This document shows, piece after piece, positions 21,467 through 34,617 of a DNA stretch of 34,765 bases; positions within the stretch are counted from its first letter, which is position 1, and every line of letters begins with the position of its first letter. Made by a program: the position numbers and the translations under genes. The stretch is taken from assembly GCA_903902705.1 (NCBI GenBank), contig CAIUVX010000073.1, positions 1-34,765 of the forward strand, read 5' to 3'. A model generated the notes under the pieces. It was not told where the DNA came from. It ran no database searches and worked only from the letters and a program-made list of their open reading frames with translations. The DNA is from an uncultured Methylococcales bacterium (GTDB lineage: Bacteria; Pseudomonadota; Gammaproteobacteria; Methylococcales; Methylomonadaceae).

Positions 21467-21507
21467 ATCCAGAAATTAGCTTAATCATATAACGAAAGGC
21501 ATAAACA

Positions 21508-22044
21508 ATGAAATCCAGAGATAGACGACGCGGCTTGGTGGTGGTAAATACAGGTACAGGCAAAGGCAAATCATCCAGTGCGTTCGGCATGGTATTTCGT
21601 GCTGCTGGTTGGGGCTTGAAAATATGCGTGATTCAATACATTAAAGGGCAATGGCAAACAGGCGAACAAAAAGCTGCCGAACGTTTTGATAATATCGAAT
21701 GGCACGCTTTAGGGGACGGCTTTACTTGGGACACTAAAAATCCTGAGCAAGACATTAAAACCAGTCGAGAAATTTGGGAGCTGAGTAAACAAAAAATGCT
21801 GTCGGAGGAATTTGATGTGGTGTTGCTGGACGAGATAAATTATTGCTGTGGTTATAACTGGATTTCAGGGCAAGAAATCACCGATTTCATTACCAATCAT
21901 AAGCCCGCATGGCAGCATTTGATTTTAACCGGACGCAATGCTGCCCCTGAAGTCATCGCTATTGCCGACACTGTGACCGACATGACTCAAATTAAACACG
22001 CTTACGAACAAGGTATTAAGGCAGAACAAGGCATTGAATTTTAA
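21508..22044 (+). CDS. cobO: Cob(I)alamin adenosyltransferase (CobA/CobO/BtuR family)
   Basis: This 178-residue ATPase-fold enzyme adenosylates the cobalt of corrinoids, making adenosylcobalamin. Motifs seen are the P-loop NTGTGKGKSSSAFG (lysines at residues 19 and 21), RAAGWGLKICVIQYIKG, the FTWDTKN segment, VVLLDEINYCCGYNW (Walker-B-like) and LTGRNAAPEVIAIADTVTDM, ending AEQGIEF. It lacks the longer N-terminal extension of E. coli BtuR. GAAAGG lies upstream of the ATG. No other cobalamin synthesis gene is adjacent, so it may serve salvage as well as synthesis. No cobalamin riboswitch is visible in the short upstream region. Confidence 0.95.
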   Translation: MKSRDRRRGLVVVNTGTGKGKSSSAFGMVFRAAGWGLKICVIQYIKGQWQTGEQKAAERFDNIEWHALGDGFTWDTKNPEQDIKTSREIWELSKQKMLSEEFDVVLLDEINYCCGYNWISGQEITDFITNHKPAWQHLILTGRNAAPEVIAIADTVTDMTQIKHAYEQGIKAEQGIEF

Positions 22045-22123
22045 GATTCATTGCTGAATAGCGTTAATTCACATAGAATTAAACAGTCGATAACACGACT
22101 GAATAATCACTCAGGAGATAAAA

Positions 22124-22531
22124 ATGTCAGAAGAACAACCAGAAAAAACCTCAGAAGCACAAAAATTAATGTATGCTGTTTTTGGCATATTTATCATCGG
22201 ATTTGCTCTGGTTTGGACGAGTAAAGACGATGCAGGCAAGGGGAAAGGAGACAATGCAGAAGCCGCTACCATGAGAAATTATGTAGCGATGCAACAAATG
22301 GCAACCGATAAATGTACTAAAATGGTCACTGAAAAAACGGGTGAACAGGTTTATTTTGTAACCGACACTAAAACCGATAAAGAAACTTATGTCACGCTGA
22401 TATGGGAAGGTGAAAATGCCAAAAAAGGCGGTTTTAAAACCGCTTCATGCACATTGAATGGTCAATTAGGTGGTATTTCTGAACTGGTTATTGACGGCAA
22501 AGAAATCATCAACAAAAAAATTCCTAATTAA
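22124..22531 (+). CDS. Small membrane-anchored protein, function unknown
   Basis: This 135-residue protein has a good GGAG site 6 bases before its ATG. A charged N-terminus (about 1-14) is followed by one hydrophobic segment (LMYAVFGIFIIGFALVW, about 15-31) and then a hydrophilic domain of about 100 residues, so it is likely a single-pass inner-membrane protein with the domain in the periplasm. The soluble part contains two cysteines (DKCTKMV and ASCTLNG) that could form a disulphide. It lies 80 bases after cobO in the same direction and may be cotranscribed. No family is recognised, and no functional link to cobalamin is shown. Confidence 0.75.
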   Translation: MSEEQPEKTSEAQKLMYAVFGIFIIGFALVWTSKDDAGKGKGDNAEAATMRNYVAMQQMATDKCTKMVTEKTGEQVYFVTDTKTDKETYVTLIWEGENAKKGGFKTASCTLNGQLGGISELVIDGKEIINKKIPN

Positions 22532-22545
22532 ACAATTCAGGGCTG

Positions 22546-22573
22546 GTAGGGGTTTAGGTGATTAAACCCCTAC
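22546..22573 (+). terminator. Hairpin after the small membrane protein gene
   Basis: GTAGGGGTTTA and TAAACCCCTAC pair perfectly over a 6-base loop, 15 bases after the stop. It lacks a clear T tract, so termination is probable but not certain. Confidence 0.6.
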
Positions 22574-22622
22574 AGAAAGAACACAGCTACACGAACAAAA
22601 TAACGGATAGCGATCACAAAAA

Positions 22623-22650
22623 AGGAGTCAAAAAACGTTTTTTGATTCCT
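22623..22650. terminator. Bidirectional hairpin between convergent genes
   Basis: The arms AGGAGTCAAAAAAC and GTTTTTTGATTCCT pair with one G-T wobble. A/T-rich tracts within the stem would serve termination in both directions, between the plus-strand small gene and minus-strand ribBA. Confidence 0.6.
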
Positions 22651-22720
22651 GAAAGCATCCGCCCATCATTTCATTAACAGCGTTACCTGCCTAAAAACTG
22701 TTTTCAACAATAAGTGATAG

Positions 22721-23821
22721 TCATGAACCCAAATGCTCAGCGACTTCCAACTCAAACCCCGACAACCCGATATACTTTTTTTGCGCTCCTAGCACTTTCA
22801 ATTTATGCACACCTAAATCTGCAAGTATTCTCGAACCTGTACCAGTAATACGCCAATCAACATCAACCGTTTGCGTTGCCACGCAGCCGTTGTCTTCTAA
22901 TTGATAATGATGAATGAGTTCAGCCAAGGCTTTATTGTTTTCATTTTGACGGATCACCACTAAAACACCACGCCCTTCTTCGGCTATTTTTTGCAGTGCA
23001 AGACGAATTGGCATACTACAATCGGTGCGCTTGGAGGCAAACACGTCATCCATTAAATTGCGAGCATGAACGCGTACTAACACGGGTTCATCGCCTGACA
23101 CTTGCCCCATCACTAAGGCGATGTGTAGGTTGTTGTCATTAGCGTCTTGATAGGCATACAATCGAAACTCACCAAATTCAGTGGGATAAGCGCATTCGCT
23201 AATACGTTCTAAAGTGTTTTCGTGTTGAATACGGTAATGAATTAAATCAGCAATGGTGCCAATTTTAAGATTGTGTTGTTGCGCAAAAATTTCTAAATCA
23301 GGTCGTCTTGCCATCGTGCCATCTTCATTGAGAATCTCCACAATCACAGCCGCAGGTTCAACACCTGCTAAACGCGCTAAATCACAGCCAGCTTCAGTAT
23401 GCCCTGCGCGATTTAATACCCCACCTGCTTGTGCCATCAGTGGAAAAATATGCCCAGGCTGCACTAAATCATCGGCTTTAGCATTGGAAGCAACCGCAGC
23501 TAAAATGGTTTTAGCACGGTCTGCTGCTGAAATACCTGTTGTTACCCCTGTTGCCGCTTCAATAGAGACAGTGAAATTAGTGGAGTGCGAACTTTTATTT
23601 TCATTAATCATCAACGGCAAGCGCAATTGCTGACACCGCTCATGAGTTAGCGTTAAACAAATCAACCCACGACCATAACGCGCCATAAAATTAACATCTT
23701 CTGGACGGGTAAATGCCGCCGCCATCACTAAATCGCCTTCATTTTCGCGGTCTTCATCATCCATAATAATGACCATTTTGCCTAAACGTAAATCTTCTAT
23801 AATTTCTTCGATGCTGTTCAT
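22721..23821 (-). CDS. ribBA: 3,4-dihydroxy-2-butanone 4-phosphate synthase with degenerate GTP cyclohydrolase II domain
   Basis: This 366-residue two-domain protein belongs to riboflavin synthesis. The RibB domain (about 1-200) is intact: [20 protein letters not shown] with the acidic active-site cluster, then [49 protein letters not shown] and the catalytic GCDLARLAG region. The C-terminal GTP cyclohydrolase II-like domain (about 205-366) has lost two of the three zinc cysteines: the positions equivalent to Cys54, Cys65 and Cys67 of E. coli RibA are Asn255, Thr266 and Cys268. It is therefore predicted to make dihydroxybutanone phosphate but not to open GTP; such RibBA hybrids are known in Proteobacteria. 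No FMN riboswitch is visible in the ~100 bases upstream. Confidence 0.95.
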
Positions 23822-23846
23822 AAATGCTATAAGGTGTATAAAAAAT

Positions 23847-23878
23847 AAACCTCCGAAGTTTAAAAACTTCGGAGGTTT
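23847..23878. repeat. Perfect 15-bp inverted repeat between ribBA and the XRE gene
   Basis: AAACCTCCGAAGTTT and AAACTTCGGAGGTTT form a perfect palindrome with a 2-base spacer. It lies after the XRE regulator stop and 26 bases upstream of the ribBA start, so it could terminate the first, regulate the second, or be a mobile palindrome. Confidence 0.75.
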
Positions 23879-23925
23879 GAGTTCATGCGAGACAGTGAAA
23901 CAACGTTATTTCACCCGTCTTCTTA

Positions 23926-24342
23926 CTATTTTTGTTGTGCCTTCATCAATTCAATCACTTCCCTCAGCAAACCATTTTCAGTATTGAGATGTTCAAATTC
24001 CTTATCCCGTTCTTGCAACAACAAGCGCGTTTGGTCTAATTCGTGAGCGCATTGCGTTTCGGTGAGCAACGTCAAAGTGACATTTGGAGAATAATTATGT
24101 CGAATATACTGGCAATTTCCAGCAATATTGACCACATTACTTTCATTCAAACCCAATAAATCTTGCAAACTAATCCCCAGCACTCGCGCTATCTCTTCTA
24201 GCTTACCGAGAGATGGATCAGTTTCACCTCGTTCCAGTTTTGCGTAGCCTTGAATAGACGCATAACCCAATTTTTCAGCCATCTCTTCCTGAGTCAACTC
24301 CTTAAACAAACGCATCACCTTAATTTTATCGTGAACATCCAT
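23926..24342 (-). CDS. XRE-family transcriptional regulator with coiled-coil tail
   Basis: This 138-residue protein has an N-terminal Cro/C1-type helix-turn-helix at about residues 5-62 (IKVMRLFKELTQEEMAEKLGYAS, then YAKLERGETDPSLGKLEEIARVL). A central segment of about 25 residues rich in Asn and Tyr follows, then a C-terminal heptad-patterned helix (ELDQTRLLLQERDKEFEHLN) that should dimerise it. It has no phage neighbours. The target is unknown; a 300-base upstream region with two hairpins and the downstream palindrome at 23847-23878 are candidate sites. It may be cotranscribed with ribBA, 104 bases downstream, but the intervening palindrome argues for separate transcription. Confidence 0.85.
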   Translation of the reverse strand: MDVHDKIKVMRLFKELTQEEMAEKLGYASIQGYAKLERGETDPSLGKLEEIARVLGISLQDLLGLNESNVVNIAGNCQYIRHNYSPNVTLTLLTETQCAHELDQTRLLLQERDKEFEHLNTENGLLREVIELMKAQQK

Positions 24343-24637
24343 TAGACCTATCCTATAAACGGTTGTATTAGCTACTGTGGGTTGCTGTTATTCATACCAG
24401 AAAAAGCCTACTATTCGTGCGTCTGAAGAACTTTCAGACCACACAAGCATAGGCTAATAACGTCTATGTGCATTTTAACAGTGTTAGGGTTTTTTAACAC
24501 AAGCGATTTATGTTGAATGTGCGGGGGTATTTGTAAATCACGTTGTTATTCACGCATTCGGCAAGGCTCTATGTGAGGTACTAGCTACTCACTGCGTAAA
24601 ATTTTATTAACAAGCTCTTAATGAGGAATTGCTAAAT
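24343..24637. other. Gene-free divergent region with two hairpins
   Basis: No ORF is supported here. One extended imperfect hairpin runs 24405-24455: AGCCTA pairs with TAGGCT outside, and GTCTGA (24421-24426) with TCAGAC (24434-24439) inside. A second inverted repeat, GTGTTA/TAACAC, spans 24481-24500. It should hold promoters for the minus-strand XRE gene and the plus-strand lipoprotein gene. GAGGA near 24622 is the likely ribosome site of the latter. Confidence 0.5.
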
Positions 24638-25384
24638 ATGGAAACACCCAGCATTACAGAAGCGTATCAATCGAAAAATATGATTTTCTTCGCTCAATGT
24701 ATCAATAAATTATTTATTAAGAGAGTTATTACGGTTGTTGGATGTGGAGTATTACTTTGTGGATGTTCAATTTATGAAGCGTCAAATGCACCTCCGTCAA
24801 TAGACTATAAAAAAGTTCATGTGGATGTAAGTAGAGCTGAAACAATTTCAATTCTTGGTCTTCCTAAATTGACTGATAATAAAGAAAATCAAAAAACTGA
24901 TACATTTGAGTTTTTGGATGGTATTCATGGAGCATCAAAAGCCAGAATTATTTTATATTTGGCTGGCGATTTATTTACTGCTGGTCTTAGTGAATTAATA
25001 TTCTGGCCCATAGAATTAAATGCTTTCGATGGAAAACAGTGTCGGGCAACAGTTGGCTATAATGCTAATGACCGCGTGATTAGCTATGATATTTTGGATT
25101 CTGATGGTGAACACTTGTGGACTTCGGGGGCAAAACCAATGTCTTTCAATGCAAACACACCTGTAATGAATCAAGCCCCCGTTCCTTCTTACCAAAATAC
25201 GCCAGTAGCAAAACCACAAGCAGTACAACAGCCAATAGTTCAGCCAGTGGTAGAAGATACCATGCCAAGCTATGAACAAACCTACCAACAACCGCAAACC
25301 CATACTTCTGGAAAGGATTTAAGAGGTTGTCTTGCATTAGTGGATAATACTGCCATAGCTAAATGTGTTAGAGATGCTAAATAA
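24638..25384 (+). CDS. Predicted lipoprotein, function unknown
   Basis: This encodes 248 residues from the ATG at 24638 (a TTG at 24629 is also in frame; GAGGA fits the ATG better). The signal region is long: about 25 polar residues, then IKRVITVVGCGVLLCGC with a lipobox-like LLCGC at about residue 43, so lipidation at that cysteine is likely. An ATG nearer the hydrophobic stretch (24679, MIFFAQC) may be the true start. The region after it (VDVSRAETISILGLPKLTD, then TFEFLDG) resembles the start of SmpA/OmlA-type small lipoprotein domains, but this is weak. A Pro/Gln/Val-rich stretch (about 175-220) precedes a short C-terminal cysteine pair (RGCLALVDNTAIAKCV). Confidence 0.7.
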   Translation: METPSITEAYQSKNMIFFAQCINKLFIKRVITVVGCGVLLCGCSIYEASNAPPSIDYKKVHVDVSRAETISILGLPKLTDNKENQKTDTFEFLDGIHGASKARIILYLAGDLFTAGLSELIFWPIELNAFDGKQCRATVGYNANDRVISYDILDSDGEHLWTSGAKPMSFNANTPVMNQAPVPSYQNTPVAKPQAVQQPIVQPVVEDTMPSYEQTYQQPQTHTSGKDLRGCLALVDNTAIAKCVRDAK

Positions 25385-25456
25385 TCATATTCAGATTATC
25401 TACTAGCTACCCAACACACACCCTCATCTTACGAAACGCGATAAGGTGCGCTAATC

Positions 25457-25537
25457 ATAGGATGTGCTGAGGCACGAAGCGCATCGTTCGAGAAAATCCA
25501 CGCGAATGATGTGCCTCCTATCGTCGGCACATCCTAT
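25457..25537 (+). repeat. Dispersed palindromic repeat, family A-like, copy 2
   Basis: Outer arms ATAGGATGTGC and GCACATCCTAT are perfect inverses. Inner arms GCGCATC and GATGTGC flank a CG-rich centre. It has the same architecture as the next element but differs in sequence. Confidence 0.8.
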
Positions 25538-25567
25538 GGTACTAAACAAACCGCAATACTGTTAGTG

Positions 25568-25637
25568 CATAGGATAGGCTGAGGTACAAAGCCCATCAAT
25601 CGCGACAGATGGACTTCCTTACGTCAGCCCATCTTAC
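25568..25637 (+). repeat. Dispersed palindromic repeat, family A, copy 3
   Basis: Outer arms are TAGGATAGGCTGAGGTA and the near-inverse TACGTCAGCCCATCTTA. Inner arms GCCCATC and GATGGAC surround AATCGCGACA. The left 50 bases match the inverted copy at 1-50. Confidence 0.85.
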
Positions 25638-25674
25638 GTTTTTCGTGCCTTTCGTGTTTTTCGTGGACGAAAAA

Positions 25675-25923
25675 CTACCCCCGCAACGCCTTCAACACCG
25701 CCTGCATCGTCGTATTCGCATCGCCAAATAACATCCGCGTGTTTTCCATGACAAACAAGGGATTACCTACACCTGCATAACCTGAAGCCATACTGCGTTT
25801 TAGCACGATGGTGGTTTCACCTTTCCAACATTCCAATACAGGCATTCCTGCGATTGGGCTGTTGGGGTCGGTGATTGCCGATGGATTAACGATGTCATTT
25901 GCGCCGATGATGATGGAAAACGT
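25675..25923 (-). pseudogene. pntB: Remnant of pntB (NAD(P) transhydrogenase beta subunit), C-terminal 82 codons
   Basis: The minus strand reads [55 protein letters not shown] and [10 protein letters not shown], then a TAG stop at 25675-25677. This is the unmistakable C-terminal NADP-binding end of PntB. The reading is clean, but homology stops at about 25910-25930, where AT-rich foreign sequence begins, so about 80% of the gene is missing. PntB is the membrane subunit of the proton-pumping NADH/NADPH transhydrogenase. A complete copy may exist elsewhere in the genome. No pntA is present in the window. Confidence 0.85.
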
Positions 25924-26862
25924 GCTAAAAAAGTAAAAAATTGGAATGATTTAATTCTGCTTTGGAAAGAAAAAAGAGAAACTATTACTCCAGACAGACT
26001 TGATATATTTTCTTTTTTAATCCCGATAGAAATTATTTATCCAAAAGAAGAAACAGACGAAAAAAAATTCTTCTCTTATGTTTCTGAAATATCTTCAGCT
26101 AGAAATAATAATACTCAATTAAAAGAATCAACAAAAGCTGACTACAACGGGCATTATGACTATTTAAAAGAATGTTTGAATAGCGAAATAAACGACAAGA
26201 TACAATGGAAAGAAAATGAAGCGAATAAATCGCTGAAACCTGATGCAATTATCGCTCTTTCCTTAATTCCTTTATACGCTCTACAAGAAGCTTTAAAAGA
26301 AGAAAAGGATAGTTTGTTTTCTAGTGTCAAAAAAATAAGCCCTCCCATGATTTACAATAGTAAAGCTAAATGTATTATTATTTTTAATGCGATAGTTAAA
26401 TCTTTTTTAGATAATAAAGAAGAAATGAGCGACGAATTTAAAAGTGCAATGGAAATGATGGGTATTATCCCAATTTTATTTGATACTATTCAAGAGGATT
26501 TTCCTGAGTTATTTAATAAAGTAGGTAGGCTTGGTAATTACTGCAAACGTTCAGATAATAGAATAAAATGTAAAACAAAATTTTATGGAAAGGAAATGCA
26601 ATATCAAGTTCCAGATGGATTTATTTTTCCAATTCTCGTTTCTCTTCATAAATTAATGAAATATGAAAAAGATGAGAAAAAATTAGTTTGGCAAGTTTCC
26701 CCAGAAGTTTTTTTTGAAAAAAATATAATTGATATAGAAAAACTATGTGATGTTATAAGAAATCACGGAGGTCATCCAGATAAAGTTGGAAAAGATACTA
26801 ATGCGTATAATGTTATGGAATTGATATTTATGGAAACTATATCTCGCTCCCAAGCAATGTAG
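25921..26862 (+). pseudogene. AT-rich 5'-truncated ORF, possibly an AIPR-type (phage resistance) protein
   Basis: An open frame of about 313 codons runs on the plus strand from the pntB junction to TAG at 26860-26862, with no plausible start at its 5' end; the first internal ATG-like start with any length is a TTG at 26176, inside obvious coding sequence (SARNNNTQLKESTKADYNG, IIALSLIPLYALQEALKEE). Strong A-richness in codons (many AAA, AAT, GAA, ATA) contrasts with all neighbours and suggests horizontal origin. The RNNNTQL-type segment after a hydrophobic PIEIIYPKEE strand recalls the part of AIPR-family proteins that follows their NGxQT motif, but this is a memory-based resemblance and weak. 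The 3' end abuts a GTTGGGTTG palindrome and may also be truncated. Probably non-functional. Confidence 0.6.
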
Positions 26863-26863
26863 G

Positions 26864-26929
26864 TTGGGTTGCCGCTTTTTGGCAACCCAACATTTCACCC
26901 TAATCTGTTGGGTTGCAAAAAGCCGCAGA
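26864..26929. repeat. GTTGGGTTGC palindromes at gene break
   Basis: A perfect 11-bp hairpin, GTTGGGTTGCC/GGCAACCCAAC, spans 26864-26891. A third copy of the arm (GTTGGGTTGC) follows near 26907, with AAAAAGCCGCAG after it. The stop of the AT-rich ORF touches its left side and the truncated DUF1614 gene its right side. Confidence 0.75.
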
Positions 26930-27087
26930 TTAATTCCGCTACCAATTAGTGTACTAATCAATAATAGCAAGGTGGTTTCAGGCGTTAAACCAAGTTTTGA
27001 AAAAGCGATTTCAAAGAGATGAATTTGCACCATTGCCATGAAAAAAAAGGCGATAAAGAGAAAAATACCTAACGAGATAATTGGCAT
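26917..27087 (-). pseudogene. Truncated DUF1614 membrane protein gene
   Basis: The minus strand starts at an ATG (27085-27087) with a strong GGAAGG ribosome site and encodes two hydrophobic segments: ISLGIFLFIAFFFMAMVQIHLF and LTPETTLLLLISTLIGSGIN. The motif AFSKLGLTPE.. followed by GSxIN is that of the DUF1614 family of integral membrane proteins, which are normally much longer (over 200 residues). After about residue 52 the frame runs into the palindromic repeat and then antisense to the AT-rich ORF before stopping at 26743, so the remaining helices are lost. The intact start region suggests recent breakage. Function of the family is unknown. Confidence 0.65.
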
Positions 27088-27152
27088 AGCCCTTCCTTTA
27101 GTAAATAATTGTTAGGGTGCTATAGCTAACCGTCGATCAAATGATTACAAAA

Positions 27153-27202
27153 CCGTTCGCACCGAGCTTGTCGAATTGGTTCGACAAGCTCACCACGAAC
27201 GG
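27153..27202. repeat. REP-like palindrome, family C, copy 2
   Basis: CCGTTCGCACCGAGCTTGTCGAA and TTCGACAAGCTCACCACGAACGG are near-perfect 23-base inverse arms around TTGG. The arms match those of 10289-10360. Confidence 0.9.
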
Positions 27203-27274
27203 CATCATTCTATTATTCCTCAGCTCTACCTCAGATATTAGATAGAATCATTGGTATTTTTGCCACCAGCCTAT

Positions 27275-29698
27275 TTATTGAATATATAACTGATTGTTCA
27301 TTGCCGAAGTACAAGCGGTATAACTTGATAATGGTGTTGCAGCTACTGTGTTAAGTGCTTTGCTTTTTTGAGTAGGTACGGTGACATCTTCATAAGCACC
27401 AAACACCTCGCTAGCAGAACCTGCCAATTTGTAATAGACAAAAAGATCATTACCGCAGCCTAAAAAGTTGGCTAATTGTGCTTGAACCATTTGGTTTATA
27501 CGCACATCACTTTCAGCACTTTTGGCTAATGCCGCATTAGAGTTAACACTCAGATCAGGTCCACCTTCATAGGCAAAGCTTTTTAGCCCATAATAATTAG
27601 CAAGGCTCTTGAACTGAATACCCGTATAGACAACGCCGCCATTATACGCAGGCAATGATGAAAATCCTGGCATAGTCGAGTTTAAACCCACCTGAAGCGA
27701 AGTAAACAGGCTATTAATATCGGTATAGCTAGATGGCGTTGAAAAATAAGGTGCGCCTCCTATCGCATACAGATATTGATTGGGTGCGCCAAAATTGGCA
27801 TTAAGGTATGTCAACCCATCCTCAGCTAAGTAAGGTTGATCATATTGCGACATATAGACAGGTCTAATGATAGTGTTGATTGCCGCAGGACCAAATACAC
27901 CAGCGAATAATTGGCTCACTTTTAAAGTCTGGTGTGCAGCTCTTCGGTATCCCCAATACCACTGATTATTTATATTATCGTAATTAAGGGTCTTATCAGC
28001 CCCTGAATTGACATCAGCCACCGCAGCAGCGGTGTTGTCAGCTGTTTGAGAAAACCCAAATGCAGAATTCCAAAGCTCATTACTGTACTCAACATAAACA
28101 TGAATGTTAGGTTTGAGGGTGCTTTTAATCAAGGTCGCTAACTGTGTGACATAATTATTAGCGGTTAGATCATTCAAATCGACTTTATCAGGAATATTAA
28201 TCCAGATGTCTTTACCAGTCGCATTGGCAAGCTGAATGACGTATTCCCAAGCAATACCGCGTGGGTCTTGTTGTGTAGGATCGGTTGGAAGCTTTCGATT
28301 AGCCCACTTGGATTCTAACTTACCATTTGTTTCTAAGGTTTCCATAACCCGTATAGTACCAAAGGGTGCAAGTGCCTTTAAAAATTCTGACGTAAAGACC
28401 TGTGTTGTGCCAATAGGGTAACCAGGGCGTAACAACTGGAGGTTTTTAACGCCATTTTTTGTATTTGTAAACGTAAGCGCGAGTGTATCATTTGTTGGCT
28501 GGACAACAACATCGGCTGTCGTTGTATTGGTTGTTGGATTGTATAGCGCATTTTGAACTTGGCAGCAACTGAAACCATTCACGGTCGCCTGACCTGTAAA
28601 ACTGAGTTTATAAATGCCAAACATACTAGGAAACGTGGTGGTCAGAGGGCGATTTAACGGGTCTGCGGTATTGGTTATAAAATAAACACCAAAATCCGTT
28701 GTTGGCCAGCCATTAGCATCCAGAGGAACAGGGTTGTTAGTTGGATCCCAAGGTGCAGAGGTTGTAGCAAAACCACGCGCTTGCTTCATAACATCAATAA
28801 AGGTTAAATCCCTATCACCCCAGTCATTTACCCAACTGATATTGATACCCATCTTAGAACCTGCATTAGCCGCAGCGGCAGAAGTAACTGTGATAGTTGC
28901 CGATTGGTTTGCCGTTCCAGACGCGCCAGTACAGGTCAGCGTATAGCTTGTTGTTGCTGTCAAAGCAGGTGTGGCAAAAGAGCCAGAGAGTGCCTGAGTT
29001 CCCGTCCAACCACCCGATGCTGTGCAGGAAGTCGTATTTGTTGATGACCAATTTAACACCGAACTTGCGCCGCTGGCTATCGAAGCTGGACTGGCAGTTA
29101 ATGAGACAGTCGGTGCTGCTGGAGGTGTAACATTAGGTGCAACATTGACAGTCACCGATTTTGTTGACGAACCACCACTTCCATTACAAACCAAGGTATA
29201 GGTTGCTGTGTTTAACAACCCAGATAAAGTCACTTGACCCGAAGTCAATTGAGTTCCAGACCAAGCATTCGATGCAGTACAGGATGTTGTATTAGTCGAT
29301 GTCCACGCCAAAACCGATGAACCTTGATACGCTACGGATGTAGGTGTGGCTGTTAATGTTAAAACAGGTGGTTGTGCCGTAGGTGTCTGAACTAACTGAG
29401 TTACGGATGCTTGTCTTGTACCCCCTTTACCCTTACAGCTTATTGTGTAAGCCACCGCTTGAGTAAGGGCGGGGGTTACAAATCTTCCCGATGTCGCCTT
29501 TGTGCCAGACCATCCACCTGACGCTGTACAAGAGCTTGCATTGGTTGATGACCAGATAACCGTACCTGTTGAACCATAAGCGATGGTTTTTGACGCAACT
29601 GCAATCGTCACAGTAGGTGCTGTTGCTGCAATGGTTATTGCTGGCAGAAAAAAGACCATAGCGAGTAGCAAGGACTTAATTATATTTTGAGTTTTCAT
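27275..29698 (-). CDS. Large secreted protein: three Ig-like repeats plus glycosidase-like domain
   Basis: This encodes 807 residues from the ATG at 29698, which opens a signal peptide (MKTQNIIKSLLLAMVFFLPAITIAA). The frame extends 26 codons further upstream, but that adds a second hydrophobic stretch and is disfavoured. Residues about 27-290 hold three Ig-like beta-sandwich repeats of about 80 residues sharing SS.NA/TTSCTAS.GWSGT and a second cysteine (YTLVCNG). A (beta/alpha)8-like domain follows: KMGINISWVNDW, GTIRVMETLETNGK, then VYVEYSNELWN with Glu541 as probable acid/base, and FAYEGGPDL with Glu711 as candidate nucleophile. This resembles clan GH-A glycosidases acting on polysaccharides, but family and substrate are not assignable. 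The Ig repeats probably bind surface or glycan. It is monocistronic. Confidence 0.75.
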   Translation of the reverse strand: MKTQNIIKSLLLAMVFFLPAITIAATAPTVTIAVASKTIAYGSTGTVIWSSTNASSCTASGGWSGTKATSGRFVTPALTQAVAYTISCKGKGGTRQASVTQLVQTPTAQPPVLTLTATPTSVAYQGSSVLAWTSTNTTSCTASNAWSGTQLTSGQVTLSGLLNTATYTLVCNGSGGSSTKSVTVNVAPNVTPPAAPTVSLTASPASIASGASSVLNWSSTNTTSCTASGGWTGTQALSGSFATPALTATTSYTLTCTGASGTANQSATITVTSAAAANAGSKMGINISWVNDWGDRDLTFIDVMKQARGFATTSAPWDPTNNPVPLDANGWPTTDFGVYFITNTADPLNRPLTTTFPSMFGIYKLSFTGQATVNGFSCCQVQNALYNPTTNTTTADVVVQPTNDTLALTFTNTKNGVKNLQLLRPGYPIGTTQVFTSEFLKALAPFGTIRVMETLETNGKLESKWANRKLPTDPTQQDPRGIAWEYVIQLANATGKDIWINIPDKVDLNDLTANNYVTQLATLIKSTLKPNIHVYVEYSNELWNSAFGFSQTADNTAAAVADVNSGADKTLNYDNINNQWYWGYRRAAHQTLKVSQLFAGVFGPAAINTIIRPVYMSQYDQPYLAEDGLTYLNANFGAPNQYLYAIGGAPYFSTPSSYTDINSLFTSLQVGLNSTMPGFSSLPAYNGGVVYTGIQFKSLANYYGLKSFAYEGGPDLSVNSNAALAKSAESDVRINQMVQAQLANFLGCGNDLFVYYKLAGSASEVFGAYEDVTVPTQKSKALNTVAATPLSSYTACTSAMNNQLYIQ

Positions 29699-29852
29699 TA
29701 TTATTACCCGTGTTGCATTAAGGATTACTAATCCTGTTAATAGTGCGTAGACTGCGATAAAGTAGAATCCCAACATTTTGTCGATAGTGTGCTGGGATTC
29801 TCATTACATCATCACAACCAACACAGCCTGCGCAACATACTACAACAACGTT

Positions 29853-31106
29853 TTAACTATAAACAGGAAATAGCGCACAAAGCTCTTTGACTTTTTCGCG
29901 TACTGCCGCTAACACGCTTTCATCTTCCATGTTTTCCATGACATCACACATCAAGCCCGCGATTTCCGTGACTTCGGCTTCTTTAAAGCCGCGTGTTGTT
30001 GGCGCGGGTGTGCCAACACGAATACCGCTGGTGACGAAGGGTGATTCTGGGTCGTTGGGAACGGCGTTTTTGTTGACGGTGATGTGGGCTTTGTTGAGTG
30101 CCGCGTCTGCCGCTTTGCCTGTGATACCTTTTGGAATAAGTGACACCAGCATTAAATGATTATCCGTGCCGCCTGAAACCACATCAAAACCACGGTCGAT
30201 AAACACTTTCGCCATTGCTTTGGCATTTTTCTTCACTTGTTGTTGATAGGTTTTAAACTCAGGCTGCATGGCTTCTTTGAACGCAACCGCTTTTGCCGCG
30301 ATAATGTGCATAGACGGACCACCTTGAATCCCTGGGAAAATCACGGAATTAATTTTTTTCTCAATCTCAGGATTGCTTTTGCAGACAATCAAACCGCCGC
30401 GTGGTCCACGCAATGATTTATGGGTGGTGCTGGTGACGACATCAGCAAATGGTACTGGGTTTGGATATTCACCAGCGGCGACTAAACCCGCAACGTGTGC
30501 CATATCAACAACAAAATACGCACCGACTTTGTCGGCGATGTCACGAAAACGTTGCCAATCCCAAACGCGTGAATACGCGGAGAAACCTGCAATGATTAAT
30601 TTTGGTTTGTGTTCCAGTGCGAGAGCTTCGACTTGCTCATAATCAATTTCGCCCGTGACTGGATTTAAACCGTATTGCACCGCGTTGTACAGTTTGCCAG
30701 AAAAATTAGGTTTTGCACCGTGGGTTAAATGACCGCCATCGGCTAAGCTCAAACCCAGAATAGTGTCGCCAGCTTGAACCAATGCCATGAACACTGCCAT
30801 GTTGGCTTGTGAACCAGAATGGGCTTGGACGTTGGCGTAGTCTGCACCAAATAATTCTTTGGCGCGGTCGATAGCGAGTTGTTCCACTTTATCAACGAAT
30901 TCACAGCCGCCGTAATAGCGTTTGCCAGGGTAGCCTTCGGCGTATTTATTGGTGAGTTGTGAGCCTTGCGCTTCCATGACGCGTGGGCTGGTGTAGTTTT
31001 CTGAGGCAATCAATTCGATGTGATCTTGTTGACGTTGGCGTTCTTCTTCCATTGCAGTAAATAAATCATCATCAAAGCCAGCGATGGTCATGGTTTTTTC
31101 AAACAT
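29853..31106 (-). CDS. glyA: Serine hydroxymethyltransferase
   Basis: This PLP enzyme transfers the C1 unit of 5,10-methylene-tetrahydrofolate to glycine, forming serine, which is the entry step of the serine cycle as well as ordinary C1 metabolism. Seen: [32 protein letters not shown], the PLP lysine Lys230 in [24 protein letters not shown] and DNHLMLVSL. Its 417 residues are full length. A clear GGAGA site precedes the ATG. It is the downstream member of mtdA-gck-glyA on the minus strand, 11 bases after gck, so it is probably the copy used in C1 assimilation. Confidence 0.98.
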
Positions 31107-31117
31107 TTAGGTGTCTC

Positions 31118-32437
31118 CTAGGGTGTGGGGTGTATGAGTAAAATTTGTAAATCGGCAACGTTAGTGCCTGTCGCGCCTGTCATGAGTAAATCGTTAGAGC
31201 TATGTAACGCGGCGTAAGAGTCGTTGTTGTTCAAGTATTCGTTGGGGTTAATGCCTGCGTTTATCATCGTAGTTAAACTGTTAGCATTCACTATGCCACC
31301 AGCGGCATCTGTAGGTCCATCACGTCCATCTGTACCACCGCTGAGCAACGTCCATTGCCCTGTTAAACGATGTTTTTTGGCGGCAATGGCAAAGGCTAGG
31401 GCGAATTCTTGATTGCGTCCGCCGCGTCCGTTGCCTTTGAGTTGTACGGTGGTTTCGCCGCCTGCAAGTAGTGCTATTGGTTTTGGAGATGACGCTCCAG
31501 CGTTGCGAGATGTTAGTGTGCTGGCATAGATGGCTAGTTTTTCGGCTTCTTCTCCAGCAATTCCACATAGCTGTTCGCTATAGATTTGAGTGTTATAACC
31601 TAGCTGCTCAGCGGTTTTTTGTGCCGCTTTTAGGCTCACAGTATTGCTGGCACATAACACATAGCTGGTGCGATTAAACACACTATCGTCTGGCTTGGGC
31701 GTTTCAGCAATCAGACCTTGTTTACCTTTTTCTAAATGTTGTTGCACAGATTCAGGGGTACGCGTCCAAATGCCTTTTTTTTGCAATACCGCAATCGCTT
31801 CGCTGTAAGTGCTAGTATCGGGTACGGTTGTACCGCTAGCAATAGTGCTTAAATCATCGCCTAATACATCGGATAAAATCAGCGCGTGAACGGTTGCGGG
31901 AACGGCTAATCGTGCTAAGCCACCACCTTTTAACTGGGATAAATGTTTACGAACACAGTTTATTTCTTGGATGTCCACGCCACAGGCGAGTAGCAAATCA
32001 GTAGTGGCAATTTTTTCTTCTAAGCTCACACCATCCACAGGATAAGGTATTAGTGCCGAACCGCCACCGCTGATTAATACCAATACGAGATCATTCGTTT
32101 GGGCTTGTGACACGCGTTCAGCAATTTTTTGAGCCGCTTGAAAACCCTGCGTGTCGGGTAATGGATGCCCTGTCCCAATGACTTCAACAGTATCAACAGC
32201 CCTAACATTTTCATAATTTGTGACAGCAATACCAACACCCGCTAAACGATGCGCTGGAATCAATTCCACAGCCGCTTGTGCCATTGCACACGCGGCTTTA
32301 CCAAACGCGATAAGGTGAATTTTTTCGCTAGGTAACGCATCCAAATGTAGACAGTGTTTAACAGCTTGATAAGGATCAGCCGCGTCAACACCTGCTTGAA
32401 AAATTTGCAAGGCGTGTTGTTTTAACAGCGTGGTCAC
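31118..32437 (-). CDS. gck: Glycerate 2-kinase (MOFRL type)
   Basis: This kinase phosphorylates D-glycerate to 2-phosphoglycerate, the step that returns serine-cycle carbon to PEP. The N-terminal glycerate kinase domain (DUF4147) has HLIAFGKAACAMAQAA, GHPLPD and VLVLISGGGSALIPYP, then INCVRKHLSQLKGGGLA and LSDVLGDDLSTIASG. The C-terminal MOFRL domain has LLAGGETTVQLKGNGRGGRNQEFAL and LLSGGTDGRDGPTDAAGG. Length (439) is typical. Its start is GTG at 32437, overlapping the TGA of mtdA as GTGA, so the two are translationally coupled. Members have been annotated as hydroxypyruvate reductases, but the motifs fit kinase. Confidence 0.95.
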   Translation of the reverse strand: MTTLLKQHALQIFQAGVDAADPYQAVKHCLHLDALPSEKIHLIAFGKAACAMAQAAVELIPAHRLAGVGIAVTNYENVRAVDTVEVIGTGHPLPDTQGFQAAQKIAERVSQAQTNDLVLVLISGGGSALIPYPVDGVSLEEKIATTDLLLACGVDIQEINCVRKHLSQLKGGGLARLAVPATVHALILSDVLGDDLSTIASGTTVPDTSTYSEAIAVLQKKGIWTRTPESVQQHLEKGKQGLIAETPKPDDSVFNRTSYVLCASNTVSLKAAQKTAEQLGYNTQIYSEQLCGIAGEEAEKLAIYASTLTSRNAGASSPKPIALLAGGETTVQLKGNGRGGRNQEFALAFAIAAKKHRLTGQWTLLSGGTDGRDGPTDAAGGIVNANSLTTMINAGINPNEYLNNNDSYAALHSSNDLLMTGATGTNVADLQILLIHPTP

Positions 32438-33300
32438 GCAGCCGATGCCATTGCTTTGGCTAATGCGAAGATATTCTCTGCATCCAGCACTTGTTTGTTG
32501 TCGGTAAATAGTTGGGTGATACAGGCTCTATGTAAAGCCAGTTTCAAGGAGCCAAAACCAATCGCCCCCCAAATAATTTTGCCATGACGGTCAATGCCTT
32601 TATCCATCATATCGGTACCGCCTATGCCTAAGGGCGGTGTAGCATTGGCATCCGCCATCATTTTGATATTGCTATTATGCTGCCATTGTTCAGTACTGAG
32701 TAATTCAACACCCGCTGCACCTGTCGCTAAAACAATATTTGCGTACTCAATCGCACTGGCTCTCGCGTCACTATCAAAGGCTTCGATAGGTGTTACATCA
32801 ACTTCAAAACGGGCTTTGATATGCGCACACGCCTGCACAGCTCGCTCCATTTTTCTAGCAGTCAGAGAAACTTCCGCCCCTTCTCGTGCCAACATTGCCG
32901 CAGCTCGCAGCCCTACGGGACCAGTTCCTGCTAACACAACGGCTTTTCTATCTTTCAGTACACCACTAGCAGCAAGTTTTGCGACTGCCGCCGATGCGGT
33001 GGTATTACTACCGTTGCAGTCTAGCATCACCGAGACTTGAAAACCGTAGAAAAATTGTCTCTGTACAGCAGAAAGTAAGGCTTCACCAGCCACCATATCA
33101 CTACCGCCGATAAAAATGGCAGTGTTTTTTTTATCTTTAGGGGCGCGGGTAAAAATAGCCCCTTCTACCAGTGCAGCAACATTGTCAGGTGTTAATCCGC
33201 CGTGTCCAATAACATGATCTGCACCACCATCGTAGCCAACAACAGTATCAAAAACAGAGGGGTAAATATCGGTATCGAATTGAAAGAGTAATTTCTTCAT
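32434..33300 (-). CDS. mtdA: NADP-dependent methylene-tetrahydromethanopterin/-tetrahydrofolate dehydrogenase
   Basis: MtdA oxidises methylene-H4F or methylene-H4MPT with NADP+, a key C1 enzyme of methylotrophs. The 288-residue protein closely follows the Methylobacterium enzyme: KKLLFQFDTDIYPSVFD, VVGYDGGADH, TPDNVAALVEGAIFTR, DCNGSNTTASAAVAKL, the Rossmann motif VVLAGTGPVGLRAAAMLAREGAEV, NATPPLGIGGTDMMDKG and KLALHRACI. AGGT lies upstream of the ATG. It is the first gene of mtdA-gck-glyA and is divergent from mdh. Its presence is the strongest sign of a methylotrophic host. Confidence 0.97.
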   Translation of the reverse strand: MKKLLFQFDTDIYPSVFDTVVGYDGGADHVIGHGGLTPDNVAALVEGAIFTRAPKDKKNTAIFIGGSDMVAGEALLSAVQRQFFYGFQVSVMLDCNGSNTTASAAVAKLAASGVLKDRKAVVLAGTGPVGLRAAAMLAREGAEVSLTARKMERAVQACAHIKARFEVDVTPIEAFDSDARASAIEYANIVLATGAAGVELLSTEQWQHNSNIKMMADANATPPLGIGGTDMMDKGIDRHGKIIWGAIGFGSLKLALHRACITQLFTDNKQVLDAENIFALAKAMASAA

Positions 33301-33533
33301 GTTTGACCTGAGAATTTAGTAATTATTTCACGCGCATTATACCCGATAAAAAAAACCACGCCGCGATTAAGCCGCCGCTCATTTCTGAGGGCTAAATAGC
33401 TAAGCTGTATGCTATGATGACCATTCATTAATTATTAGCTGATATGACGCAGTCAACAAAAATCCAGAACTATTTATTGTGTCTGTGCCGTGTCTTAATC
33501 CGTTTTATCAACATAAACAACACAGGAAATTGA
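33301..33533. promoter_or_regulatory. Divergent control region, mtdA and mdh
   Basis: Both serine-cycle transcription units start from these 233 bases. TATGAT at 33413-33418 is a possible -10 box for the mdh side, but no good -35 pairs with it. ACAGGA before 33534 is the mdh ribosome site. No operator palindrome is convincing. Confidence 0.45.
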
Positions 33534-34511
33534 ATGAAAACACCAATTCATATAGCAGTGACAGGCGCGGCAGGACAAATTAGTTATTCTTTACTATTTC
33601 GTTTAGCCTCTGGTTCTTTATTAGGCGCAGAACAACCTATTGTCTTGCATTTATTAGAAATTACTCCCGCTTTAAAAGCCTTGGAAGGCGTAGTCATGGA
33701 GTTAAATGATTGTGCCAGCCCATTGTTACGACGTATTGAAATGACCGATGATCCTAAAATTGCTTTTAAGAATGTCGATTATGCGTTTTTGGTCGGTGCG
33801 CGTCCAAGAGGTGCAGGCATGGAACGCAAAGATTTATTAGAAGCCAATGCAGCGATTTTCTCCGCACAAGGTCAAGCGTTAAATGAAGTTGCTAGTCGTG
33901 ATGTTAAAGTATTGGTGACAGGTAATCCTGCTAATACCAATGCCTTAATCGCGTTAAAAAATGCGCCTGATTTAAGTCCAGCCAATTTTTCCTGTATGAC
34001 CCGTTTAGATCATAATCGCGCTATCAGCCAATTAGCAGAAAAATGTGGCGTGTTAGTGACTGATATAAAAAACATGACTATCTGGGGCAATCATTCATCA
34101 ACTCAATATCCTGACTTGCATCACGCGATAGTCAAAGGGCAAGAAGCACTGTCTTTAGTTGATAAGAATTGGTTTGTGAATGATTTTATTCCTAGCGTTC
34201 AACAACGCGGTTCAGCAGTTATTGCAGCTAGAGGACAATCCAGCGCAGCCTCCGCAGCAAATGCGGCGATAGATCAAATGCGCACTTGGACATTTGGTAC
34301 AGAAGAAGGCGATTGGGTCAGTATGGGTATATTGTCTGATGGCAGTTATGGAATAGACAAAGGTTTGATTTATTCATTTCCAGTCACGGTGATTAATGGC
34401 AAAGTTAGCATTGTTAAAGACCTACCAATTAATGATTTTAGTAAGAAAAAAATGCGCGAAACCGAAACTGAGTTAAAAGAAGAACGCGAGGCAGTTAAGC
34501 ATTTGTTTTAG
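33534..34511 (+). CDS. mdh: Malate dehydrogenase
   Basis: This enzyme interconverts malate and oxaloacetate with NAD(H), working in both the TCA and serine cycles. It is of the cytosolic-like MDH type (325 residues): NAD Rossmann motif [32 protein letters not shown], the Arg-bearing loop [27 protein letters not shown], catalytic Asp in TRLDHNRA and catalytic His187 in [12 protein letters not shown]. The final helix is Glu/Lys-rich ([15 protein letters not shown]). The gene is divergent from mtdA-gck-glyA, consistent with a C1-assimilation cluster. Confidence 0.97.
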
Positions 34512-34617
34512 GAAAAACACCAAAAATTGGTAGTGGATTAAATCTGTAATTAGGCATGAATATCAAGCCCTATAGTGAATCCCAAATTCAGGATAATAGT
34601 TTAAGCTATACCCTGTG

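Follow-up and report, generated by a model that had tools for sequence, protein, structure and literature searches.

A probable recombination scar carrying a remnant of an AIPR-like gene in place of native genes in an uncultured Methylococcales bacterium

How does an AT-rich reading frame without a start codon come to lie between the truncated ends of two other genes, and what stood at the site before? We addressed this question in a window of 34,765 bp with a GC content of 0.419, which represents one contig (C73) of the 210 that make up the 3.97-Mb genome of an uncultured Methylococcales bacterium (G000). From left to right, the site comprises an HTH regulator gene, an ORF of 251 amino acids, two dispersed palindromic repeats (A and B), the tail of pntB on the minus strand, the AT-rich frame on the plus strand, a third repeat (C), the start of a DUF1614 gene on the minus strand, and a large ORF (Table 1). 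The pntB tail, the startless frame, the palindrome and the DUF1614 start were all found where the first-pass annotation had placed them; it had read the arrangement as the trace of a larger island, perhaps a defence locus, that was subsequently deleted. The 251-amino-acid ORF is presumably lipoprotein-like, judged by eye from the sequence and not from a tool result. Nothing reached the Rfam gathering scores in 24400-27300.

Table 1. Features at and around the replaced segment (window coordinates).
Feature	Coordinates	Strand	Remarks
HTH regulator gene	23926-24342	-	Native left flank, collinear with G006; Pfam HTH_3, E 4.8e-12; lies upstream of the G002 operon as well
Replacement segment, 2,406 bp	24510-26915	.	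In place of 2,417 bp of G006; BLAST breakpoints 24509/8299 and 26916/10717 of L052
251-aa ORF	24629-25384	+	Without Pfam match (E <= 0.01); C193 of the own genome has a DNA relative of 76% identity
Repeat A, dispersed palindromic	25435-25537	.	Many matches in the own genome, up to 96% identical; three other copies aligned
Repeat B, dispersed palindromic	25564-25637	.	Also just downstream of pntB on C20 and in G007
pntB 3' fragment	25675-25917	-	Last 81 codons including the stop (minus-strand stop at 25675), no 5' part; PF02233 positions 380-455 of 456, E 3.7e-33
AIPR-like C-terminal remnant, 313 aa	25921-26862	+	No usual start at its beginning; stop TAG 26860-26862 supplied by the left end of repeat C (from 26859)
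Repeat C, dispersed palindromic, without right arm	26859-26927	.	Final 12 bases shared with DUF1614
DUF1614 5' end, 57 codons	26916-27087	-	Codons run from 27087 down to 26917; 96% amino acid identity to the intact G006 gene
Large right-flank ORF	27275-29776		No Pfam match

The congener G006 is 89-93% identical to the window over long collinear stretches. In BLAST, it is continuous with positions 21498-24509 of the window and then again with 26916-34513; between the two breakpoints it carries genes of 309, 145 and 89 amino acids, the last of which bears a CxxCxxCC domain, and the remainder of an intact DUF1614 gene. BLAST also places the operon behind the same HTH regulator in G002, so it is probably ancestral there and was lost from the window genome. 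The operon and the DUF1614 gene of G002 are located on separate contigs (C131 and C32), so that the exact prior arrangement is taken from G006 only. No BLAST match to the right flank of the window was found for the DUF1614 flanks retrieved from G001-G004 and G007.

The DUF1614 gene is cut early, slightly later than the ~52 codons first estimated, and the 57 codons left retain only about 10 residues of the PF07758 domain, which covers residues 47-217 of the intact 218-residue G006 protein (E 3.6e-49, 167.4 bits). Neither another DUF1614 copy nor a PF07758 match is present in the own genome. Among the seven congeners, six contain DUF1614 as open frames of 221-245 amino acids, and the seventh, G005 (74% complete), gave no DUF1614 match. 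Alignment with related genomes thus confirmed the gene as intact in G006, with small native genes at the site, and did not confirm that pntB adjoins it: pntB is neither neighbour of DUF1614 in G006, it is intact elsewhere in the own genome, and the six congeners in which both genes could be located have them on separate contigs. The proposal that the two genes once adjoined and that an island parted them is therefore not sustained. Nor is the deletion of an island supported by G006, the sole congener seen to span the whole site, which has small native genes and no island there.

The pntB tail does end abruptly, as had been noted (~82 codons, to about 25920), and its homology stops at 25917. 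A full-length PF02233 match is absent for this fragment, and the full gene is located on C20. Since an intact pntB exists there, the piece in the window is imported and not a resident gene cut at the site. Its DNA is 91.8% identical to the C20 copy, with 3, 0 and 17 differences at the first, second and third codon positions, corresponding to 16 silent and 3 changed codons. Such a predominance of third-position differences indicates that most of the divergence arose within functional genes and that the fragment came from outside, instead of slowly decaying in place. In the pntB tree, the fragment groups with G006/G007 and not with C20, although this tree of 243 bp is weak (support 0.88). Of the earlier view that a foreign fragment separates two truncated neighbours, the truncation of both and the loss of 2.4 kb of native DNA stand, but the pntB piece itself is imported and is not a flank.

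Matches to pntB were found in 38 of the 41 genomes searched; 37 of them have one match, and the own genome alone has three. The third lies at C45:61824-62800 (L002, L058), where another truncated 3' end of pntB (profile positions 344-455) is located by transposase-like sequence at the contig end; on its other side is DNA that in G007 lies downstream of pntB. We take the transposase-like sequence, by eye, to be of the IS256 type. Site-specific integration into the pntB 3' end was considered as the main reading and rejected, because the truncated copies start at different points (profile position 380 versus 344). Positions 1-54 of the window and C20:1-40 both begin within repeat B, in a head-to-head overlap of 19 bp; pntAB may therefore sit just left of the window, its pntB running in the opposite orientation to the fragment at 25675, although repeat B has other copies.

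Three dispersed palindromic repeat families are packed in one 1.5-kb stretch of the window. Repeat C gave 54 match rows in the own genome, a count for which 40 of 50 candidates were scored and palindromic copies can count twice. We aligned six copies and read two more. The aligned copies start with GTAGGTTGGG, and in several of the copies read the right arm is the complementary CAACCCAACCTAC or a near variant. The GTTGGGTTG palindromes described at the ORF stop are thus real, with the correction that they form one copy of a dispersed repeat. At the junction with the DUF1614 gene the right arm of repeat C is cut, and the 12 bases CAAAAAGCCGCA at this joint are present both in the intact G006 DUF1614 gene and in two other repeat C copies (C131 and C94), which makes joining through short homology likely. 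The six copies aligned first have only 4-8 contiguous bases in common with DUF1614 at the joint. The pntB/AIPR joint at 25917-25921 lies within no repeat found here.

Repeats of this kind raise the question of an assembly artefact, in which unrelated sequences would have been misjoined at the palindromes or through chimeric reads. The three dispersed repeats in the segment would suit such a misjoin, as would a genome in 210 contigs and a window that itself starts within repeat B; however, the pntB/AIPR joint is outside every repeat found here, the pntB fragment is too divergent from the own copy (only ~92% identical) to be a misplaced copy of it, and the reported contamination is 0.31%. We consider a misjoin quite improbable. 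At least three contig starts in the genome (C20, C62 and C73) fall within repeat A or B.

The 313-codon frame is startless and AT-rich, as first described: its GC content is 0.284, as low a value occurring in only 0.06% of 938-bp sliding windows (10-bp steps), and, open from 25804, it contains no in-frame ATG, GTG or TTG before the TTG at 26176. Single-frame mononucleotide shuffling, repeated 2,000 times, gave no open run longer than 113 codons as against the 313 observed, so the frame is a real coding remnant. Its homology starts at profile position 133 of 456, and the N-terminal ~130 residues of its relatives (450-470 residues) are gone. In a search of 151 genomes (the own genome and 150 relatives), only two matched, the own genome and Methylotetracoccus oryzae (G143, contig 23, NZ_SRSH01000029.1; E 1e-41, 34% identity). 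Relatives also occur in 11 plasmid records, of which the Roseomonas plasmids (E 2e-37) carry genes of 454 amino acids annotated as hypothetical, and in tblastn the fragment matches shorter plasmid genes annotated as AIPR family protein (E 5e-13 to 1e-7). A phage origin was rejected, since 50,697 phage records gave no match.

A resemblance to AIPR proteins had been offered in the first-pass annotation as weak. The guess was right, through homology to annotated AIPR proteins and to full-length relatives, although the profile searches proposed with it were negative: PF10592 gave no match to 25921-26859 at E <= 10, and no other Pfam model, NCBIfam model or PADLOC defence profile (E <= 1) matched the fragment. 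The PF10592 test fails because the fragment begins past the part that this profile recognises in the long relatives. The full-length relative from the same order (G143) exceeds the curated PF10592 cut-off with 33 bits, so we class the fragment as the remnant of an AIPR-like gene and not as an AIPR protein. With the subfamily profile, the window gave the only match in the own genome, and no N-terminal part was found elsewhere.

The fragment retains the ARNNN motif and 43 of the 53 positions with at least 85% conservation in a 54-row alignment; among the relatives the mean is 95% and the minimum 81%. The lack of a stop over 313 codons indicates that the decay is recent or that some constraint is left. 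These features could also suit a short functional gene of 228 amino acids starting at the TTG at 26176, or one with a non-standard start. However, for 61 of 63 relatives the match spans most of the full-length query; the other two cover residues 53-260 and, at a contig end, 5-348. All 63 start earlier than the fragment, which has lost most of the ParB-like domain and shows no usual start. A functional short gene is accordingly a very remote prospect, and the AIPR-like piece, lacking its start and most of that domain, should be dead. An AIPR-like frame with an internal stop in an uncultured Oscillospiraceae (L087:8001-9347) is perhaps another pseudogene.

The 63 loci came from an alignment-based scan of genome contigs, where a single-sequence scan had confirmed no relative; a scan of viral contigs gave 10 loci with AIPR-like relatives. 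Previous studies report that AIPR is often found with restriction-modification (PMC3506569) and count PF10592 among the Abi proteins (PMC10121019); one literature source also ascribes an N-terminal HEPN domain to AIPR proteins. Compared with AIPR/AbiU1 proteins in the strict sense of PF10592, the subfamily shows differences. In three long relatives the profile covers only residues 42-49 to 114-116, with 33 bits in G143 and 17.4 and 15.5 bits in the others (cut-off 25), but it spans most of two shorter Bacillota AIPR proteins, with 111 and 108 bits. Two of these five relatives thus lie below the cut-off, and the window fragment is without the matching part, although it aligns with the plasmid genes annotated as AIPR family protein. 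In addition, the subfamily has ~40 extra residues after the DGGHN motif, which are absent in the two Bacillota proteins.

The predicted model of the full-length G143 protein has a mean pLDDT of 94.2. Foldseek against the PDB gave nothing at E <= 0.001 for this model, and a sequence profile search of the PDB gave nothing at E <= 1. In VIA-align, the top four rows are all ParB-type chains, situated within residues 22-259 of the model: the top row is the ParB-type PadC (Z 6.1, 2.9 Å, 98 aligned), with SspE (Z 5.3 and 5.1, 4.2 and 4.1 Å, 142 aligned) and a Pnob8-like ParB-N domain (Z 4.2, 5.6 Å, 147 aligned). In contrast, the DndBCDE-DndI entry reached only Z 2.8 at 8.0 Å. All rows have Z below 8, a range in which the tool warns of chance arrangements, so a ParB/SspE-type N-terminal domain in the intact AIPR-like proteins is probable only; families missing from the rows may also be similar. 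The window fragment retains about the last third of residues 22-204, the range covered by PadC and SspE.

The neighbourhoods of the intact relatives bear on the idea that the segment is the remnant of a larger defence island, since deleted. At least one of three kinds of homologous neighbour (HKD-Snf2 helicase, type IIG enzyme, PbeA/PbeC pair) is present in the fetched DNA of 18 of the 63 loci (910 kb) and in 0 of 69 control stretches (403 kb); the controls are shorter and from other genomes, so this contrast is a guide and not a test. The HKD-Snf2 helicase occurs near the AIPR-like gene in 16 of the 63, and large type IIG methyltransferase-like genes likewise in 16 (12 by one probe and 4 by the other); 45 loci have none of the six neighbour probes. 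The 18 loci with restriction or modification genes would lend an island some plausibility. However, the ORF list of the segment contains only the 251-amino-acid ORF and the remnants, with no further island gene, integrase or transposase and no restriction- or modification-type neighbour, and, with G006 free of an island and the pntB piece imported, we regard an island remnant as unlikely.

In eleven of the 63 loci (L069, L071, L073, L074, L075, L076, L079, L082, L117, L118 and L122), the fetched stretch with the AIPR-like gene also encodes an HKD-Snf2 helicase (PADLOC C3a139-like), together with a large type IIG-like methyltransferase whose C-terminal domain is of the ISP kind, as judged from scanning one protein per cluster; these may constitute a possible restriction system. 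The clustering used our own ORF caller and one threshold, and four loci have no AIPR-like frame in the main cluster. In the case of G143 (L063), a PbeA (E 8.5e-224) and a PbeC-like protein (E 1.1e-22) are encoded ~1.4 kb past the AIPR-like gene, similar to the Pbe/CxC ABC-ATPase systems (PbeABCD) treated in PMC6459918 and PMC10853773. Such a pair occurs in only 1 of the 63 loci (tblastn), however, and none was seen in the window segment.

Elsewhere in the own genome, a 1105-residue HKD-Snf2-type helicase (148.8 bits) is encoded near a contig end at C196:80529-83846 (L165:10530-13847). It was rejected as a partner, with 24% and 48% identity to the family's neighbour in two pieces and no AIPR-like gene among the ORFs listed beside it. 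A cluster at C144:8436-16982 (L166:437-8983) encodes a Z1-type protein (E 9e-99 to Terribacillus Z1), a 389-residue protein and a 619-residue AIPR protein (PF10592, 350.7 bits); from reading the translations, we take it to include an ATPase-like protein and a cytosine methyltransferase as well. The cluster looks like an intact AIPR-type restriction locus, separate from the window remnant. Its AIPR gene was rejected as the source of the missing N-terminus, as it does not match the subfamily profile.

We consider it probable that 24510-26915 is a recombination scar, where a native stretch was lost, ~2.4 kb of joined pieces took its place and the AIPR-like piece is dead. Compared with a simple insertion or a deleted island, mosaic replacement is the better account of the site. 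As in G006, the native stretch lost would have contained the three genes of the operon next to the HTH regulator, together with ~160 codons from the end of the DUF1614 gene. The incoming DNA would have comprised the lipoprotein-like gene, repeats A and B, a 3'-terminal piece of a pntB allele, two thirds of the AIPR-like gene (its C-terminal part) and repeat C, and the right joint, formed through short homology, points to illegitimate recombination of imported DNA as the likely route. The entry route, the order of events and the loss of function we infer from the pieces and their joints. Another reading, which we hold to be rather doubtful, starts from the intact pntB on C20, the 3' end by transposase-like sequence on C45 and the 3' end joined to a defence-type gene in the window: the pntB 3' end and the repeat behind it could be a recurrent joining point for incoming DNA, and the AIPR-like family a ParB-fold restriction partner, outside the defence catalogue used, that travels through such joints.

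The segment is most likely an ordinary, though well-resolved, genome scar with no working system. Nevertheless, the site displays, base by base, the loss of native genes and their patchwork replacement through short homology and dispersed palindromes, and a startless frame without any profile match is now assigned to a protein family. The intact relatives may have a role in defence. AIPR-like proteins of 450-470 residues occur near restriction-type genes, and none of the five full-length relatives tested matches PADLOC (E <= 0.01), a side result that may matter more than the scar itself.
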